A program made the position numbers and the translations under genes. Of a stretch of 20,491 nucleotides of DNA, positions 8,459 to 20,491 are shown piece after piece. Positions within the stretch are counted from its first letter, which is position 1. Each line of letters opens with the position of its first letter. The notes beneath the pieces were generated by a model. That model worked only from the letters and a program-made list of their open reading frames with translations, had not been told where the DNA came from and searched no databases. Origin of the DNA: an uncultured Candidatus Saccharibacteria bacterium (GTDB lineage Bacteria > Patescibacteria > Saccharimonadia > Saccharimonadales > CAMLKC01); NCBI GenBank assembly GCA_946480595.1, contig CAMLKC010000013.1:1-20491 (forward strand), given 5' to 3'.

Positions 8459-8499
8459 GCGGTTTGGCACTCTTGCGCTTGCGTAAAATGTCCGATAAT

Positions 8500-9030
8500 A
8501 TGAATGAATTACAGCTAGCTAAGATAGAGGACGTCTTTGGGGTGCAGCTTCCTAAAGAGTTCAAAGATTATATTACAGAAAAACCAGAAGCACTTGCAAT
8601 TTTTGAGCTTACTTGGTCCTCCGATCCCTCTTTGATTAGAGAAGCTACATGGAAAGCATATGAAGACTCCCTGCGATTCGATATAGAAGAAAATAATTAT
8701 TGGCCAGTCGTATTCGGCGAACGCCCATCTTTGCTGGTTGAGCGGGTAGCTGTTGCCATGGAGTATATCAAGACGCTTCCACCACTCTTGCCGATTCATG
8801 GTCTGCGTAAACTAATTCCAACAAAGACATCCGATACCACGAAAGAGATGCCCATTCTGTCTTTTCATGGATTCTCAGATACTATCTACATGTATGCCAA
8901 TCTTGATGACTTTCTCAGAGATAAATCGGTATCTGATAAGAAAAGGCAACAGCTGCCTCGAGTCATCGGATGGGAGAAGGTTTTTGACGGTCTTGGGGCT
9001 GGTGACGACGAGCTATATAGAGAACAGTAA
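8500..9030 (+). CDS. SUKH (SMI1/KNR4)-like protein
   Basis: A roughly 176-residue soluble protein. The start, LAKIEDVFGVQLPKEFKDYI, has the pattern of SUKH domains (an acidic helix, then LP and an aromatic/Asp helix). The later part, WPVVFGERPSLLVERVA through PPLLPIHGLRKLIP and an aromatic strand ending SDTIYMYANLDDFL, resembles a group of uncharacterised bacterial SMI1/KNR4-like proteins with PLIPVYGHRYLP-type motifs. SUKH proteins often serve as immunity proteins against nuclease or deaminase toxins, but no toxin gene is next to it, so that role is only a possibility. The start is uncertain: in-frame TTG 8464, ATG 8488 and ATG 8500 exist. A TAAAAT box at 8484-8489 favours 8500. It is convergent with the VOC gene, with 10 nt between stops. 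Confidence 0.65.
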   Translation: MNELQLAKIEDVFGVQLPKEFKDYITEKPEALAIFELTWSSDPSLIREATWKAYEDSLRFDIEENNYWPVVFGERPSLLVERVAVAMEYIKTLPPLLPIHGLRKLIPTKTSDTTKEMPILSFHGFSDTIYMYANLDDFLRDKSVSDKKRQQLPRVIGWEKVFDGLGAGDDELYREQ

Positions 9031-14566: not shown

Positions 14567-16906
14567 CTAATTATTGCTAAAGGTAAAGCCGAGGTTGCTG
14601 ACGTAGGCGTTTGCGTCGTTCTTGGAGATAAGGTTTATTCGGAAAAGAACGCTATCCCCGGCGGAGAACCCACAAGCTGAAGGATCTGCGCCACCACTCG
14701 CCGTAGCTTTTTGCCAGGTGGTCTGCGCGCCCGAGGTGACTGACACGGCCAATCCGCAGGAGGTGAGTCCGGAGCCGTCGTCGCGGTATATCTGGTAGCT
14801 GACGGCAGAATCCGCGCTGTCTGTACGCCCCATGAGTGACGTCGTGCCCGGGACGAACTCCTTAAACGATGCAGGTAATTGGTAGGTGACAAAAATGCTG
14901 CGGGTCTGATCGGTGGTTTCGGCAGATGTCCAGTTGTAGAAGTTATACGTCTCGTTGGTGCCACAAACTGTTGGCTGTGACGAGCTGCCGTCGTTAATAT
15001 TAAGGGTGTCCGAACAAAGATCGGAGGTGATTGTACCGATGTCGGTGCCGTTCATGACGGCGTTGGTGTATTCAGGGCTGATGGTGACAAAACTATCTGG
15101 TGCCGCACCACAAGCACCCCAGCCTTCGGATTCGTAACACTGTACCTTACCGAGCGTCGTATCGTAGTACATGCTGCCCAGTAGTGCGCTCTGATCTTGT
15201 ACGGTTGGTGCGGAGCTGGCCTTGTCGAGGGTTAAGAGGCTTGTTGCGCCACTGCCCGAGCCGGTACCTATCTGTACGTTTGCTGCACCGCTGGCGTCAT
15301 CGGTGTTGACCGATAGGATGTCCTTACCGGACGAATCTTGTACCTGGAAGGCGTTGGTGCTATCGACAGCATTCTTAAAGGTTGCGTCGCCGGTAGGACC
15401 AAGGTTGAATATGGTAGCGTTGCCGCCAAATGAGTCGGCCGCGCCGCCACTCGTATCAACAGTGGCATAGAGTGATAGCCGGCCTGCGCTAGTGCTTTCG
15501 GTTGCGAATGTATTTGGCAGTGTCGAGCCGGTCATGTGGGCGCGCGTACCAACTCCTGTAGTGAGCTTGGTTGTATCATCACAGTCCGTAGCGAGCGAAA
15601 GCCAGTAAATGGTGCCACTGGTAACATTGACGCTGGCAGTCAGTGGCATGGTGTTCCAGCCAGTCGTACCTGCTGTCTGTGCGGATTTTCCAAGGAGCGA
15701 TCCGGGGGCTGTACCGCTGCCGTTGTCGGCGTAAACACCAAGCTGAACGTTGGGGCAGAAGCTGTCGACGCTGCTCAGGTAAACTGACATATTCAGAATA
15801 GAGCCAGTTTCAGTGGCGGTGTATTTTTGTGCCTGTACGTGCTGGTAGTTGCCCGTTCCGTCTGTGGCGCCAATCGTCGAATCGCCAATGGTAGCGGTAG
15901 AGCCGCCGGCGATCGAGCTGGCTACCTTGAACGACCCGTCGCTGGCATCAATGCCAACTGAGTACTTGCTTGAGCCGTTTGCTGACAGTTCGATTCCTGC
16001 GTCGCCGGTACCCTGCTGGGCTATACGGACAGGGAGGCTGTTGGTTGACGAGTTGCTGACGGCGACGTCGAGCGGACGGCTTGGTGCTAGTGTGCCAACA
16101 CCCAAATTGCCACTGAAAGTGGCGTTGCCGGTCTGATTGAGGGTGCCGGTGGCGTCGATATTGAAATAGCTACTGCCGCTGCTGTCTTGAACATCCAGCG
16201 CCTTGCCTGTTTGTGATGATCCTTGTTTGATGACAAGGTTAGATGAGCTTTGGTTGGTGCGACCCTCGATGTAAGCGGTAATATCCGAGTCGTTACCCGA
16301 CTGCAGGGCAATGTTCGAGCCAGCTTGTAGGTCGGTGGTGTTGTGTATCAGTTCGTTAACGGTTTTGCCGCCTACAGCGCCAGAGTTAATGGCGTATGGC
16401 GTTGCGGTGATGCGGCGCATCGGTAGCATTTCGCCGTCGGCCGAGCACGAGCCGGCGTCAAACGACGTACAGTCCGTTGCTGCGCCAGCGACATTCATTG
16501 AGAGCCATAACGTGTCTTGGTTCCAGTCAACGCTGGTTCCGAACGGATTGAGCGAACCCAGGCTGACAGAGAAGAAGCCGTTTTTGACCTCGACGCCGCT
16601 TGTGCCGCCGTTATTGATGTATGACTCTGTCCATTTGAGCGTGCCGCCAGGATTACCTGCCGCTGACCCCGAGCCGTCTTGATAAATCTTGAATTGGATG
16701 TTGTAGTGGCCATCTTCAACGACGGCACCTGTTGATTTGAGGAGGCGTCCCTGGAAGTTGATGGTTTTAGTGACATTTGGCGCCGCAAGTGAAACATTAG
16801 CTAACAATAGCGTTGTAATTAACGCTACACATAGCGCGAATAGCCCTGCTGTTTGCAGTGCATGACGCTGTTTAAAGATAGTGGGGAGGTGACACCACGC
16901 TGTCAT
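14567..16906 (-). CDS. Large secreted fibre/adhesin-like protein
   Basis: A 779-residue exported protein. A long N-region with a hydrophobic core (about 20-40) and LAA cleavage site near 42 forms the signal peptide. The first mature domain (INFQGRLLKSTGAVVEDGHY at 49-68, continuing to MLPMRRITATPYAINSGAVGGKTVNEL) is a jelly-roll-like module often seen at the start of CPR surface proteins. The middle has tail-fibre-like segments (NATFSGNLGVGTLAPSRPLDV; KNAVDSTNAFQVQDSSG; ASSAPTVQDQSALLGSMYYDTTLGKVQC). There is a lectin-like module around 360-470 (ILNMSVYLSSVDSFCPNVQLG to GTIYWLSLATDC) and a C-terminal beta domain. It is rich in Gly/Ser/Thr/Asn/Asp, with no sorting motif or C-terminal membrane anchor. 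A role in attachment to a host cell or surface is inferred. It is divergent from the F1-ATPase cluster. Confidence 0.75.
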   Translation of the reverse strand: MTAWCHLPTIFKQRHALQTAGLFALCVALITTLLLANVSLAAPNVTKTINFQGRLLKSTGAVVEDGHYNIQFKIYQDGSGSAAGNPGGTLKWTESYINNGGTSGVEVKNGFFSVSLGSLNPFGTSVDWNQDTLWLSMNVAGAATDCTSFDAGSCSADGEMLPMRRITATPYAINSGAVGGKTVNELIHNTTDLQAGSNIALQSGNDSDITAYIEGRTNQSSSNLVIKQGSSQTGKALDVQDSSGSSYFNIDATGTLNQTGNATFSGNLGVGTLAPSRPLDVAVSNSSTNSLPVRIAQQGTGDAGIELSANGSSKYSVGIDASDGSFKVASSIAGGSTATIGDSTIGATDGTGNYQHVQAQKYTATETGSILNMSVYLSSVDSFCPNVQLGVYADNGSGTAPGSLLGKSAQTAGTTGWNTMPLTASVNVTSGTIYWLSLATDCDDTTKLTTGVGTRAHMTGSTLPNTFATESTSAGRLSLYATVDTSGGAADSFGGNATIFNLGPTGDATFKNAVDSTNAFQVQDSSGKDILSVNTDDASGAANVQIGTGSGSGATSLLTLDKASSAPTVQDQSALLGSMYYDTTLGKVQCYESEGWGACGAAPDSFVTISPEYTNAVMNGTDIGTITSDLCSDTLNINDGSSSQPTVCGTNETYNFYNWTSAETTDQTRSIFVTYQLPASFKEFVPGTTSLMGRTDSADSAVSYQIYRDDGSGLTSCGLAVSVTSGAQTTWQKATASGGADPSACGFSAGDSVLFRINLISKNDANAYVSNLGFTFSNN

Positions 16907-17122: not shown

Positions 17123-17965
17123 GTGAAAAAATCAACATTTATCCTTAGTTTGGCGCTCGTTATCGGGGCGGTGGCAACAGTTACCGTACCGGTTTTCGCG
17201 GCGACGTACGGCGGCGGGAGCGTGCAGGGATACGCAGCGGTAAAACCGCTCGACAATGGGACGATCGTCGAGTTGACAGGTAAAGGCTCAGACGAGGTAA
17301 AAATCGCTACCCAAGCAGAGCTGCCAAATATGTTCGGCGTCACGGTCGATCGCAACCAGCTCCCGCTGACCATCACCCGTGAAGGAGTTAAGAACGAAAC
17401 GTTTGTGGCCGTGTCGGGCACGTACAATGTTTTGGTAAGCACACAGGGCGGTGCGATAAAAGCTGGAGAATACGTCACTCTCTCGTCGGTTAATGGTGTT
17501 GCAATGAAGGCTGGAACCGAAGAAAAGACAGTATTCGGCCGAGCACAAGCGTCCTTTGACGGCAAAGGCATCACACTTAGCACCGCATCGCTCAAAGACA
17601 CGTCCGGCAAAGCCAGTAAGACCGTCAAGTTGGGCCTTATCCCAATTACTATCGACATTAGAAGCAATCCGAACCAAAAAACAACCAAGGTAAAAGTACC
17701 GTCCTTCCTTGAGCGTGTCGGTCTGGCTATTGCCGAAAAGCCGGTGAGTCCAATCCGTATTTACCTCAGTATCGCTATTTCGGTTATTTGTGTGATTGCT
17801 GCCATTGCTATCGTGTACGCTGGGGTGCGAAACGGCGTCATCTCCATCGGCCGTAACCCGATGTCAAAAAAGTCTATCTTCAGAGCTTTGATCGAAGTGA
17901 TTTTAACGAGTTTGCTTATTTTAATTATTGGCATGTTTGCGGTATATTTACTACTGAAGCTATAG
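17123..17965 (+). CDS. Exported protein with fibre-like ectodomain and a C-terminal two-helix hairpin resembling ATPase subunit c
   Basis: A 280-residue protein. Residues 1-27 are a signal peptide (KKST, hydrophobic core, VFA cleavage). Residues about 28-170 form a beta-rich outside domain whose pattern (NGTIVELTG, GVTVD, VAVSGTYNVLVST, GGAIKAGEYVTLSS, FGRAQASFDG) resembles modules near the ends of phage and CPR fibre proteins. After a linker come two helices, 211-234 and 256-278. They are joined by a short basic, hence cytoplasmic, loop with IGRNP at 242-246. Helix-loop-helix with an RNP/RQP loop and both ends outside is the topology of F0 subunit c. However, the loop is shorter than in c. 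The only acidic residue of helix 2 (E258) sits near the cytoplasmic edge, 12 residues after the Pro instead of about 18. Homology to c is therefore uncertain. It is first in the operon, 13 nt before the next gene. Confidence 0.7.
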   Translation: MKKSTFILSLALVIGAVATVTVPVFAATYGGGSVQGYAAVKPLDNGTIVELTGKGSDEVKIATQAELPNMFGVTVDRNQLPLTITREGVKNETFVAVSGTYNVLVSTQGGAIKAGEYVTLSSVNGVAMKAGTEEKTVFGRAQASFDGKGITLSTASLKDTSGKASKTVKLGLIPITIDIRSNPNQKTTKVKVPSFLERVGLAIAEKPVSPIRIYLSIAISVICVIAAIAIVYAGVRNGVISIGRNPMSKKSIFRALIEVILTSLLILIIGMFAVYLLLKL

Positions 17966-17978
17966 GTGGGAACAAACG

Positions 17979-18674
17979 ATGGGATTATTTCAGGGGAAAC
18001 AAAAAACAGATCAAACGACGCCAATCGACGAAAAAAGCGATGGTGTCCAAAAGTTCTTTGACGGCTATTTTCATGAGCTGCGAGTTCGCGGCAAGGCGTA
18101 TTTTGAAGAAACTGTCGATGAAACAGTCGACGAGTTTAAAAAAGAGCTCGACGCGACTATTGCCGATGCCAATGCCGAGCTGAAAAAGCATATTGTTGAA
18201 AAACTCGAAGAGCAATTTACTGAAAACCACGCTATTATCCAGGAGGCGCAAAAAGCCGCACTGGTGTCGTTGACAACGAGTGCTAAAGCTGTCGCGGATA
18301 AGCAGCGCGAACTGGGTGAAAAAGTCCAAAAGGACATCACCGACCAAGAGGTAGCCCTGAACGGGATGCTTGAGCAAAGCAAGTCGCGCATTGCCGAGAT
18401 TAACCGTGCACAGGACGAAGCGCTGCAGTCGCTAACTGGCAGCGTAAAGGCGGTCGAAGAGCTCCACCGGGAAATCAACGACCGGCTGCAAAAGAGCGTG
18501 GCCGACCAAGAGGCAATGATTTTGAATGCTTTCGAGGAAAACATGGCCCGGATTGTCGAGCACTACTTGCTAGAAGCTCTCGGCGACCAGTATGACCTCA
18601 AGGCGCAGTTGCCAGCAATTATTCAGCAGCTAGAGACTAACAAGCAAGCAATCGTGGACGATATGAAATTATGA
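17979..18674 (+). CDS. Coiled-coil protein with internal duplication, peripheral-stalk (subunit b)-like by position
   Basis: A 231-residue, highly charged, almost entirely helical protein rich in Ala, Glu, Lys, Gln and Asp. In an F-type operon this slot (after c, before delta) belongs to subunit b, whose long helix forms the outer stalk. Unlike b it has no membrane segment; it begins with a short, mildly hydrophobic MGLF and a polar stretch. Residues 90-138 and 144-192 are a clear tandem duplication (AQ-x-x-AL-x-SLT-x-S-x-KAV in both, ending S/M-x-RI). A C-terminal segment of about 40 residues (HYLLEALGDQYDL onward) might contact delta. SD-like AGGTGGG precedes ATG 17979, and its TGA overlaps the next ATG (ATGA, 18671-18674). 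Function as a stalk is inferred from order and shape only. Confidence 0.7.
   Translation: MGLFQGKQKTDQTTPIDEKSDGVQKFFDGYFHELRVRGKAYFEETVDETVDEFKKELDATIADANAELKKHIVEKLEEQFTENHAIIQEAQKAALVSLTTSAKAVADKQRELGEKVQKDITDQEVALNGMLEQSKSRIAEINRAQDEALQSLTGSVKAVEELHREINDRLQKSVADQEAMILNAFEENMARIVEHYLLEALGDQYDLKAQLPAIIQQLETNKQAIVDDMKL
18246..18554 (+). repeat. Two imperfect tandem copies coding a 49-residue coiled-coil unit
   Basis: Copy 1 is 18246-18392 (residues 90-138) and copy 2 is 18408-18554 (residues 144-192), offset by 54 codons. Shared positions include AQ, AL, SLT, S-x-KAV, RE, QK and DQEA. The DNA has diverged more than the protein pattern, so the duplication is old. Confidence 0.65.
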
Positions 18675-19171
18675 ACGGCATGAGCTTTACATTGCCGCCG
18701 AGTATTGTCAGCAAGATAGACGTGGCGCGTCTGGTGGGAGAAGTCGAGCAGATAGATAACGCACAGACCGCCGAAGCCGTGCGCGAAAAAATCGGTGCGG
18801 CAAGCCATTCCGAAACGTCGTTTTCAGAACAGCTATCTGCCTTTTTGACGCAAAACCAACTTACTATTGGCAATGGTCTCGAGCGGAGCGAGCTGATCAA
18901 GCAGCTCAAGCTAATGAAAGAAAACGTCCCCGTTATTCATATGACGTTTGCCGTGCCTGCCGATCGCGAAAGCCTGCAACAGCTAGTAGCGTGGTTGCGC
19001 ACGTCGGTACATCCGCAGGCGGTTGTTAGTGTCGGGTTGCAGCCATCGCTGGTGGCCGGAGTGAGTATTCGCACGCCTAATCACATCCACGATTTCAGCA
19101 TGCGTTCTGTCCTCAAGAAAAATCACGGCCTGCTTGTAAAAGAACTGGGAGCGCTTCGTGGAACCGAGTAA
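18671..19171 (+). CDS. atpH: F1 ATPase delta/OSCP-like subunit
   Basis: A 166-residue protein. Its C-terminal half (about 90-160) fits the delta/OSCP C-terminal domain. HMTFAVPADRESLQQLVAWLR corresponds to the amphipathic helix, then comes AVVSVGLQPSLVAGVSIRTPNHIHDFSMRSVL. The last segment parallels the canonical D-P-S-L-I-G-G-x-x-x-R-x-x-D-x-x-x-D-G-S-V-R with Q for D, A for G and F for G. The N-terminal part (LPPSIVSKIDVARLVGEVEQID) is shorter than and unlike the usual six-helix domain, but resembles delta proteins annotated in other CPR genomes. Delta ties the stalk to the top of the alpha3beta3 head. It starts by ATGA overlap with the coiled-coil gene and overlaps alpha by 14 nt, so translation is probably coupled. 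Confidence 0.78.
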   Translation: MNGMSFTLPPSIVSKIDVARLVGEVEQIDNAQTAEAVREKIGAASHSETSFSEQLSAFLTQNQLTIGNGLERSELIKQLKLMKENVPVIHMTFAVPADRESLQQLVAWLRTSVHPQAVVSVGLQPSLVAGVSIRTPNHIHDFSMRSVLKKNHGLLVKELGALRGTE

Positions 19172-20491
19172 GATTTTTGAAAAACTGGTTGGCGACGGAA
19201 ATCCGGTCGGAGAAGTCATCGGAATCGACTCGTTTATGGTCAAGGTAAGGGGCCTGCAGCCAACTAACGTCCATGCGGTCATTCGGTTTGATGACGACAC
19301 GCGTGGCTATGTGCACGAGGTATTTGAAGACCACGTTATTGTCATGAAGCTCGATCCTTCGCCGCTTCATATTGGGACGGTGTGTGTTATTGAGTCGCGC
19401 GATATTATGACGCCAGTGGGCAAGAATTTCATCGGCCGCGTTATCAATGTGTTTGGCGAGCCGATTGACGGCAAAGGTCCGATCGAACACGACCAGGAAT
19501 GGGATGTTTTTCACTCTGCGCCAATGCTTTACGAGCGCGAACTTTTGGATACGCCGGTAGAAACGGGCGTGACGATTCTTGATCTTGAATATTCCTTGGC
19601 GCGCGGCCAGCGTATGGCAATGCTCGGTGATAGCAAAGTGGGAAAAACAGCGCTTGCCGCCCAGGTGGCCATTAACCAAAAAAATACCGACATTACCGTG
19701 GTTTACGTGCTGATTGCCAAACGTCAGCATGACGTGGCGGAGCTGGTGAACAACCTCGAAAAGAACGATGCGCTTAAAAAGGCAATCGTCATTGTCAGTA
19801 ACTCGTTTGAGTCGCTTATTCTTACCTATTTGGTGCCATATGTCGGTGCGGCACACGGCGAATATTTCTGGCATAAGCTGAATATGGACACCCTCATGAT
19901 TTACGACGACCTGACGGCGCACGCTCAGGCGTACCGCGAAATTTCGCTGATTGCCGGCGTTTCGCCAGGCCGCGATTCATACCCAGGCGACATGTTCTAT
20001 ACGCACTCTAGCCTGCTGGAACGCGGTGGCAAGACCGAGTCGAATCATGCCAGCCAGACACTAATTCCTATCGTGTACGCGCCAGGCGGTGATATTACCG
20101 CCTATCTGCCAACTAACATCATGTCTATTACGGACGGTCAGTGGATTTTGGACGGCCAGATCTTTAAGGACACGATGCGTCCTGCAGTTAGCACGGCACT
20201 TTCGGTCACTCGTGTGGGTGGCGTTGGGCAAAACAAGCGCCAAAAGGGCCTCGCAGACAAGCTCAACCTGACACTTGCTGGCTATCGCACTGCTGAGGAA
20301 TACGCGCACTTTGGTACCGAACTGAGCCCGCAGGCCCAAGCCGATTACGACAAGGGTAAGGTGCTTTTCAAGCTCATGAACCAGCAAATTGGCGAGATTT
20401 ATAACTTTGCCGAGCAGCAGTTTATTATGAGCATCGTTCTTGAAAGCAAGCCCGACGAAGTCATTAACGTCAAAGCGCTGAAAGAAAAAGT
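19158..20491 (+). CDS. atpA: F1 ATPase alpha subunit, divergent, 3' end cut by window edge
   Basis: The 444 residues visible are clearly alpha-type. There is a beta-barrel domain (GEVIGIDSFMVKVRGL), then GRVINVFGEPIDGKGPI at 93-109. The P-loop GDSKVGKT is at 157-164, where alpha normally reads GDRQTGKT. A Walker B-like TLMIYDDL follows at 245-252, then SPGRDSYPGDMFYTHSSLLER at 269-289 and AYLPTNIMSITDGQ at 315-328. SVTRVGG at 349-355 contains the arginine finger. YVLIAKRQ at 183-190 aligns with the alpha signature YVAIGQK but has K where Q is expected. The N-terminus is about 12 residues shorter than E. coli alpha, removing most of the helix that binds delta. It starts with GTG, overlapping delta by 14 nt. 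Gamma and beta are expected just outside. Whether it serves ATP synthesis or another motor is open. Confidence 0.93.
   Translation, partial: MEPSKIFEKLVGDGNPVGEVIGIDSFMVKVRGLQPTNVHAVIRFDDDTRGYVHEVFEDHVIVMKLDPSPLHIGTVCVIESRDIMTPVGKNFIGRVINVFGEPIDGKGPIEHDQEWDVFHSAPMLYERELLDTPVETGVTILDLEYSLARGQRMAMLGDSKVGKTALAAQVAINQKNTDITVVYVLIAKRQHDVAELVNNLEKNDALKKAIVIVSNSFESLILTYLVPYVGAAHGEYFWHKLNMDTLMIYDDLTAHAQAYREISLIAGVSPGRDSYPGDMFYTHSSLLERGGKTESNHASQTLIPIVYAPGGDITAYLPTNIMSITDGQWILDGQIFKDTMRPAVSTALSVTRVGGVGQNKRQKGLADKLNLTLAGYRTAEEYAHFGTELSPQAQADYDKGKVLFKLMNQQIGEIYNFAEQQFIMSIVLESKPDEVINVKALKEK

Follow-up and report, generated by a model that had tools for sequence, protein, structure and literature searches.

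The stretch of DNA analysed here, i.e., the window, comprises 20,491 nucleotides (nt) of contig CAMLKC010000013.1 (assembly GCA_946480595.1) from an uncultured Candidatus Saccharibacteria bacterium, and its end carries the first four genes of a seven-gene cluster encoding an F1-like ATPase with a non-standard membrane part. All four genes lie on the forward strand. The first (17123..17965, GTG start) encodes a 280-residue exported protein derived from subunit c, here designated c*, whose signal peptide was recognized by eye in the sequence and whose model consists of a beta ectodomain (residues 34-181), a short helix (194-204) and a C-terminal helical hairpin (210-279). The ectodomain (17222..17665) displays the fold of phage capsid-cement, head-fibre and gp12 C-terminal domains, while the c-like hairpin (17750..17959) is without an acidic residue at the level where canonical c subunits bind the ion and contains an R-N-P turn (17852..17860) equivalent to the polar loop of subunit c. 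The following genes encode b* (17979..18674), a coiled coil of 231 residues in the stator position which is devoid of a membrane helix in the window's group; the delta (OSCP) subunit (18671..19171; PF00213, E 1.7e-5, 25.4 bits against a cut-off of 22.3); and the alpha subunit (19158..20491; PF00006 or ATP-synt_ab, E 8e-63), which is cut by the window end. The b* and delta genes overlap by 4 nt (ATGA), and the delta and alpha genes by 14 nt. This order and these overlaps had been described in an earlier, sequence-only reading of the window, and the coordinates of the open reading frames (ORFs) bear it out, as they do the reported absence of a subunit a gene upstream, where the preceding gene (14567-16906) is divergent.

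Searches with the window alpha subunit retrieved 49 relatives from GTDB contigs, these being L001-L035 with 57-94% alpha identity, L049 with 53%, and thirteen distant relatives with 36-43%. The first 35 are mostly titled Saccharibacteria or Saccharimonadia, and some merely 'bacterium'; L007, titled Rhodoglobus, and L034, titled Chloroflexi, are perhaps misbinned. The complete cluster, as seen for example in CP011211, reads c*, b*, delta, alpha, gamma, beta, epsilon, with neighbouring genes overlapping by 1-14 nt from b* onward. The gamma, beta and epsilon genes, which the sequence-only reading proposed to look for downstream, directly follow alpha in relatives, and those of the window itself probably lie beyond its end, judging from relatives that are approximately 90% identical in alpha. 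A census was compiled from L001-L035, L049 and 79 hand-picked regions, in which second copies were deliberately included and which does not represent a random sample. It yielded 112 copies of c* (110 after removal of identical ones), and among the 86 with at least 6.8 kb of downstream sequence, 74 are followed by exactly b*-delta-alpha-gamma-beta-epsilon, confirming that the arrangement is no chance association. The remaining twelve consist of one locus with a split beta, one without b* and delta, one broken after alpha, and nine without F1 genes, while the 24 copies with less room comprise nine complete clusters, ten that are partial or have split genes, and five without F1 genes.

The c* protein is a derivative of subunit c and not an unrelated protein. 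When its predicted hairpin is superposed on the Chloroflexus subunit c, 69 of 69 residues align at 1.2 A, and c subunits rank first among the known-fold matches of the hairpin. The R-(Q/N)-P turn that, together with the helical hairpin, characterizes subunit c, and which faces gamma and epsilon in F1Fo, reads GRNP in 108 of 109 copies and ARQP in the other (these counts exclude L197, which is truncated ahead of the turn). Profile comparison by hhalign supports this kinship: a first, smaller comparison (64 c* tails and 7 canonical c sequences) aligned only the loop (33% probability, P 4.5e-4; reversed control 0.038), and with a larger sequence set the score rose to a probability of 82.6% (P 9.6e-6). 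No match to PF00137 was listed for the window c*, nor at the c* positions in the genome search, in which HMMER filters drop most weak matches. Likewise, no subunit c or b family occurs among the Pfam and NCBIfam matches listed for the window c* and b*, and so the ordinary profile matches that the sequence-only reading had named as a possible refutation did not materialize. That reading was correct in describing the c-position protein as non-standard, exported and endowed with a large ectodomain, with the correction that the protein is no unrelated substitute: except for the missing ion site, its hairpin is like that of subunit c in fold, turn and profile.

The loss of the ion site is complete in the copies analyzed. 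No aspartate or glutamate occurs at positions P+13..P+28 after the turn in any of the 109 Saccharibacteria copies or in 23 copies from a wider phylum set, while P+12 is acidic in 36 of the 109 and is not a conserved position. The glycine-rich ring-packing pattern of helix 1 is found in none of the 109 c* proteins versus 29 of 35 canonical c subunits, the latter having been chosen by an acidic residue at P+18, whereby two of 37 were dropped. The canonical subunit c of L102 and L112 carries its glutamate at P+17, one residue earlier than the others. From the signal peptide, both termini of c* would lie outside the cell, and since the protein is without the ion-binding carboxylate it could not carry ions, in which case torque would be passed to the outside domains. 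The cluster is not classed as an F1Fo ATP synthase, because two defining features of the latter, i.e., a nearby subunit a and the ion-binding carboxylate, are lacking.

In contrast, the hallmarks of an F1 sector are all present, with alpha to epsilon subunits carrying the P-loop, Walker B, catalytic glutamate and arginine finger, the beta, gamma and epsilon subunits being judged in relatives. Among beta subunits longer than 400 residues, the P-loop and (using a loose pattern) Walker B are present in 105 of 105, and GERxREG in 102, the other three reading REA; the arginine-finger pattern occurs in 111 of 114 alpha subunits of more than 400 residues. The gamma subunit of L004 matches the full PF00231 family, its epsilon subunit shows the beta-sandwich domain only, and epsilon subunits have a median length of 103 residues (n=106). 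The b-position protein had been reported to be without a membrane helix, which is true of the window b* (best 19-residue Kyte-Doolittle mean of 0.48) and its close relatives, but not of the system as a whole: 73 of 100 b* proteins, the window counted, possess such a helix, which in 68 cases starts within approximately the first ten residues. The 27 proteins without a helix come from the window and close relatives of it, among them L007, which is truncated by a contig start, and the absence is therefore a local trait. A scan of two helix-bearing b* relatives against PF00430 (ATP-synt_B) returned one weak match, below cut-off (E 0.012), and none for the other.

The cluster often coexists with a canonical ATP synthase. 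In the eight genomes examined, two alpha/beta pairs were found in seven and three in one, and atpB was located elsewhere in seven; furthermore, L050, L052 and L054 each contain a canonical operon in which a, c, b, delta and alpha follow one another in this order. The second, canonical F1Fo operon whose presence the sequence-only reading had proposed to check thus exists as a separate cluster in the genomes examined, and with its own alpha and beta it excludes the outcome in which the genes described here belong to the sole ATP synthase. Across the class of G002 (strain TM7i), the c* profile is matched at E 1e-3 in 130 of 294 genomes, with up to four matches per genome, and the TM7i locus (L019) carries the full cluster. 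In 147 of these genomes (taken to be G001-G148 without G003, some perhaps incomplete) PF00137 was also searched: 79 possess c* and 82 canonical c, with 58 having both, 21 c* only, 24 canonical c only and 44 neither. The true number with c* only is at most 20, as G001, counted in that category, represents no true absence, its canonical gamma, beta and epsilon being readable. G004 possesses a second, diverged but complete F1-like cluster (L118) in addition to its main one and the canonical operon.

In a draw across the phylum, 137 of 379 genomes match the c* profile, many of these matches being to the ectodomain only, inside frames of 1,000-4,400 residues. From this draw twenty regions were picked by hand. 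In sixteen of them c* is accompanied by an F1-like set with alpha/beta placed outside the Saccharibacteria clade (the tree did not include L243), and in one (L244) by a set inside that clade, while three (L225, L226 and L240) are without F1 genes. All 23 c* proteins of the phylum set retain the RNP turn; detection of b* was limited to L227-L230 and L244, and no delta was detected in L233, L234, L236, L239, L242 and L243. In each of L227-L230 a single F1-like set lies between two different c* genes, of which one is convergent with epsilon, and the paired proteins possibly build a ring of mixed composition or two rotors driven by the same motor. A FastTree phylogeny of concatenated alpha and beta (66 taxa, 927 columns; supports are local values, not bootstraps) unites the 38 F1-like sets in one clade (1.0), within which the 23 Saccharibacteria sets form a clade of their own (1.0), while 16 canonical sets and 12 outgroups fall outside, the canonical L273 branching next to the F1-like stem. 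This topology fits a single old origin of the F1-like sets and would also be compatible with transfer.

The c* ectodomain matches phage capsid cement and minor capsid families (PF23982, PF22758) in fold. PF23982 scored above cut-off in two of six relatives scanned, four of the six having been preselected for such listed matches, and was not above cut-off in the window c*. Phage proteins with this fold decorate capsids or form fibres, and several of them are trimeric. The ectodomain alone recurs in the phylum draw inside the very long open frames mentioned above (G362, G395, G479, G504 and others).

The surroundings of the cluster offer candidate partners outside the membrane. Within 3 kb of the units of the Saccharibacteria set no conserved polytopic protein was found: 28 polytopic ORFs occur in 19 of 101 loci, with the largest group having nine members (four named ones being c* itself) and the next three. 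In the 21 units with at least 5 kb past epsilon, a protein designated down1, with a single transmembrane (TM) segment and a beta-rich ectodomain, is present in 18, and at least one exported protein of the down2, S1 or S2 type in 19 (S1 in 18, S2 in 13 and down2 in 12; judged by numbers, the three models share most matches). Of sixteen c* genes for which the stretch examined shows no F1 genes, some of which lie near contig ends, twelve have an ORF for a single-TM protein with a large ectodomain within 2.5 kb, eight belonging to the down1 family. For the 117 c* genes with F1 genes, 89 have such an ORF within 2.5 kb of c* or epsilon, 58 being down1-like; the baseline for ORFs of this kind is 160 of 1,891, these neighbours included. 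The down1 model (mean predicted local distance difference test score of 72.8) has no confident relative, its best Foldseek E being 0.01, and the rows returned include tail-spike, tail-fibre, bactofilin and H-type lectin structures. Lone c* genes adjoin one-TM large-ectodomain proteins of up to 2,440 residues in L119, L120, L124-L128, L130, L155, L159, L169 and L177; in L120 the 2,440-residue ORF, noted by eye, is on the opposite side of c* from the ORF counted. In L119 (10089-12867), the two genes that follow a lone c* and a fibre gene, judged by eye, resemble those for the PilB and PilC of type IV pili.

Taken together, these data suggest that the second ATPase of many Saccharibacteria and some of their relatives probably works on the cell surface, rather than in ATP synthesis or proton pumping. 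We favour, with a probability of roughly two in three, a dedicated ATP-hydrolysing motor that moves no ions and acts on the surface. Judging from the conserved motifs, ATP hydrolysis in alpha3beta3 would turn gamma-epsilon, which, on the strength of the conserved turn and the fold, may dock on the RNP turns of several membrane-embedded c* hairpins, while b*-delta would hold alpha3beta3 in place. The c* assembly would then turn, and its outside domains with it. Gene neighbourhood points to these ectodomains acting with single-TM fibre-like proteins (down1 and the large proteins beside lone c*) and exported neighbours, and by the same token the motor may serve in attachment, surface movement or remodelling while the bacterium lives on its host cell. 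The proposal of the sequence-only reading, i.e., an F1 motor whose partner is not a standard proton channel and may be a surface structure, is thereby supported in part, with rotation, the ring and any named partner remaining inferred; its underlying observation is real and its interpretation largely right, with the corrections given above.

A different use of the same parts is that c* serves as a static anchor or small oligomer, a non-rotating tether, the work being done by motion of gamma or by conformational change in alpha/beta. The loss of the ring-packing glycines counts in favour of such a tether and against a turning ring, and the trimeric state of several phage proteins with the ectodomain's fold would suggest a trimer over a larger ring. 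In addition, the available portion of the report on the Mycoplasma mobile twin motor (G1-ATPase) describes a solved structure that has no membrane part and discusses force transfer to GliD (PMC11864180). A tether is nevertheless unlikely in our estimation, as the near-invariance of the turn and the retention of gamma, delta and a mostly TM-bearing b fit a rotor-stator machine. Still less likely, and quite improbable, is that the system is an ion pump or ATP synthase after all, with c* borrowing the canonical subunit a and using another residue such as the P+12 glutamate. The acidic P+12 of one third of the copies, and the canonical c present in 58 of the 79 c* genomes of the compared sample, would allow this, but P+12 is not conserved, the span P+13..P+28 is free of acidic residues throughout, up to 20 genomes (some perhaps incomplete) have c* with no canonical c found, and the epsilon of L004 shows only its beta-sandwich.

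Very little probability attaches to c* being a relative of type IV secretion system (T4SS) pilins (VirB2/T4SS_pilin) recruited beside F1. The topology, a signal peptide and two helices, is alike, a weak NCBIfam match links c* to a pilin-like family (E 8.6), and at least six T4SS pilin matches occur in each of eight genomes searched. However, the PF18895 matches listed for these eight genomes do not include c*, hhalign against 17 pilins (at least one in a wrong frame) gave P 0.032 and 1.6% versus the values reported above for canonical c, and c subunits lead the known-fold matches; a pilin origin of the hairpin is thus unsupported by either search. Finally, an ordinary ATP synthase with its canonical membrane genes elsewhere, for which split operons in bacteria provide precedent, is refuted by the second operon, the additional alpha/beta pairs and the separate, fully supported clade of the F1-like subunits.

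Comparison with known systems places the cluster apart from its closest counterparts. It shares with the Saccharibacteria F1Fo its F1 parts, the gene order from b to epsilon and the RNP turn of c, yet differs in having neither subunit a nor the ion-binding carboxylate, in the exported domain on c and in its distinct alpha/beta clade. Like the N-ATPases (TIGR03324), it is a second F-type ATPase in one genome, but the window alpha falls far short of that family's cut-off (304 against 750.5 bits), and N-ATPases keep subunit a and an ion-binding c. By analogy, its nearest kin in kind would be the F1-like ATPases of Mycoplasma, which, in the accessible text of the publications cited here, likewise form a second seven-gene cluster beside a normal F1Fo, keep alpha, beta, gamma and epsilon, and are proposed to work a surface structure by ATP hydrolysis (PMC11864180, PMC12994834). 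According to the published description of their architecture, the Type 2 and 3 clusters also include a signal-peptide protein with two C-terminal TM segments. The same sources describe a 12-TM protein and no recognized delta or b in Mycoplasma, with GliD proposed as a b-delta fusion, whereas here delta and b are recognizable, no 12-TM partner was found near the units, and the two-TM protein has the turn and fold of subunit c. The Mycoplasma two-TM protein is also much larger, and in Type 3 limited proteolysis, as reported in the available part of PMC3369863, placed part of it in the cytoplasm, unlike the exported c* ectodomain. Furthermore, the window alpha scores higher with the ordinary alpha models PRK13343 (374 bits; cut-off 554) and atpA (360; cut-off 484) than with the Mycoplasma models MMOB1660 (gliding, 326) and MSC_0619 (243), with all NCBIfam alpha models matched, TIGR03324 among them, scoring below their own cut-offs.

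It is tempting to go further and to regard the system as an invention of the Patescibacteria, in which F1 rotates ion-dead c subunits arranged as a ring, their phage-decoration-like ectodomains driving a surface fibre; as an old use of F1 that spread beyond Saccharibacteria and stands alongside the MIB-MIP system, Mycoplasma gliding, ion pumping and ATP synthesis; and as the member that has changed least in a family of F1 motors acting on the surface, in which the Mycoplasma two-TM protein is a further-drifted c*. This extended scenario is speculative and, on balance, doubtful, and the cytoplasmic location reported for part of the Mycoplasma protein (PMC3369863) speaks against the last element.

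No description of c* or of the cluster was found in searches of the open-licence PMC literature. The nearest hint is that of Seymour et al. 2023 (PMC10066038), who reported a non-respiratory F-type ATPase in Omnitrophota, with beta clustering with Saccharimonadia, and suggested a part in attachment and motility. This 'symbiotic' ATPase resembles the present one as a non-respiratory F1-like enzyme of tiny host-associated bacteria, but the paper's accessible sections cover alpha, beta and a link to type IVa pili, and not the Saccharibacteria cluster, a c without an ion site or the ectodomain. A predicted F-type ATP synthase of Southlakia has been described, in the text available, as dispensable on the host (PMC10633639) and is not equated here with the c* cluster. 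Cultivated members of the phylum are reported to live attached to other cells, and motility has been tied to pili using a nonspecific PilB inhibitor in TM7i and quercetin in TM7x (PMC12206443, as far as its accessible text goes). Inhibition of F1Fo or of ATP synthesis has likewise been reported for quercetin and polyphenols (PMC10488605, available part), and the pilus-motility inference is therefore possibly confounded in strains possessing this motor.

If our interpretation is correct, a rotary ATPase of a large and little-understood phylum has given up ion transport through the loss of one residue and directed its rotor outward. This would also offer a solution to the question of how an F1-like ATPase that lacks a proton channel can work on the surface, which is open for Mycoplasma gliding and testable here because each subunit can still be named; TM7i, which has the full cluster, is already used in motility work (PMC12206443, accessible text). 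Tallies of 'F-type ATPase' in Saccharibacteria, for example that in the available part of PMC12592800, may mix two different machines.

Elsewhere in the window, the divergent gene preceding c* (14567..16906, reverse strand) encodes an exported repetitive protein of 779 residues, belonging to a family designated 'up', for which no Pfam family scored above cut-off; it is a frequent neighbour and no demonstrated part of the machine. A 188-residue protein encoded at 8464-9027 shows a weak, below cut-off match to the SMI1/KNR4 (SUKH) family.

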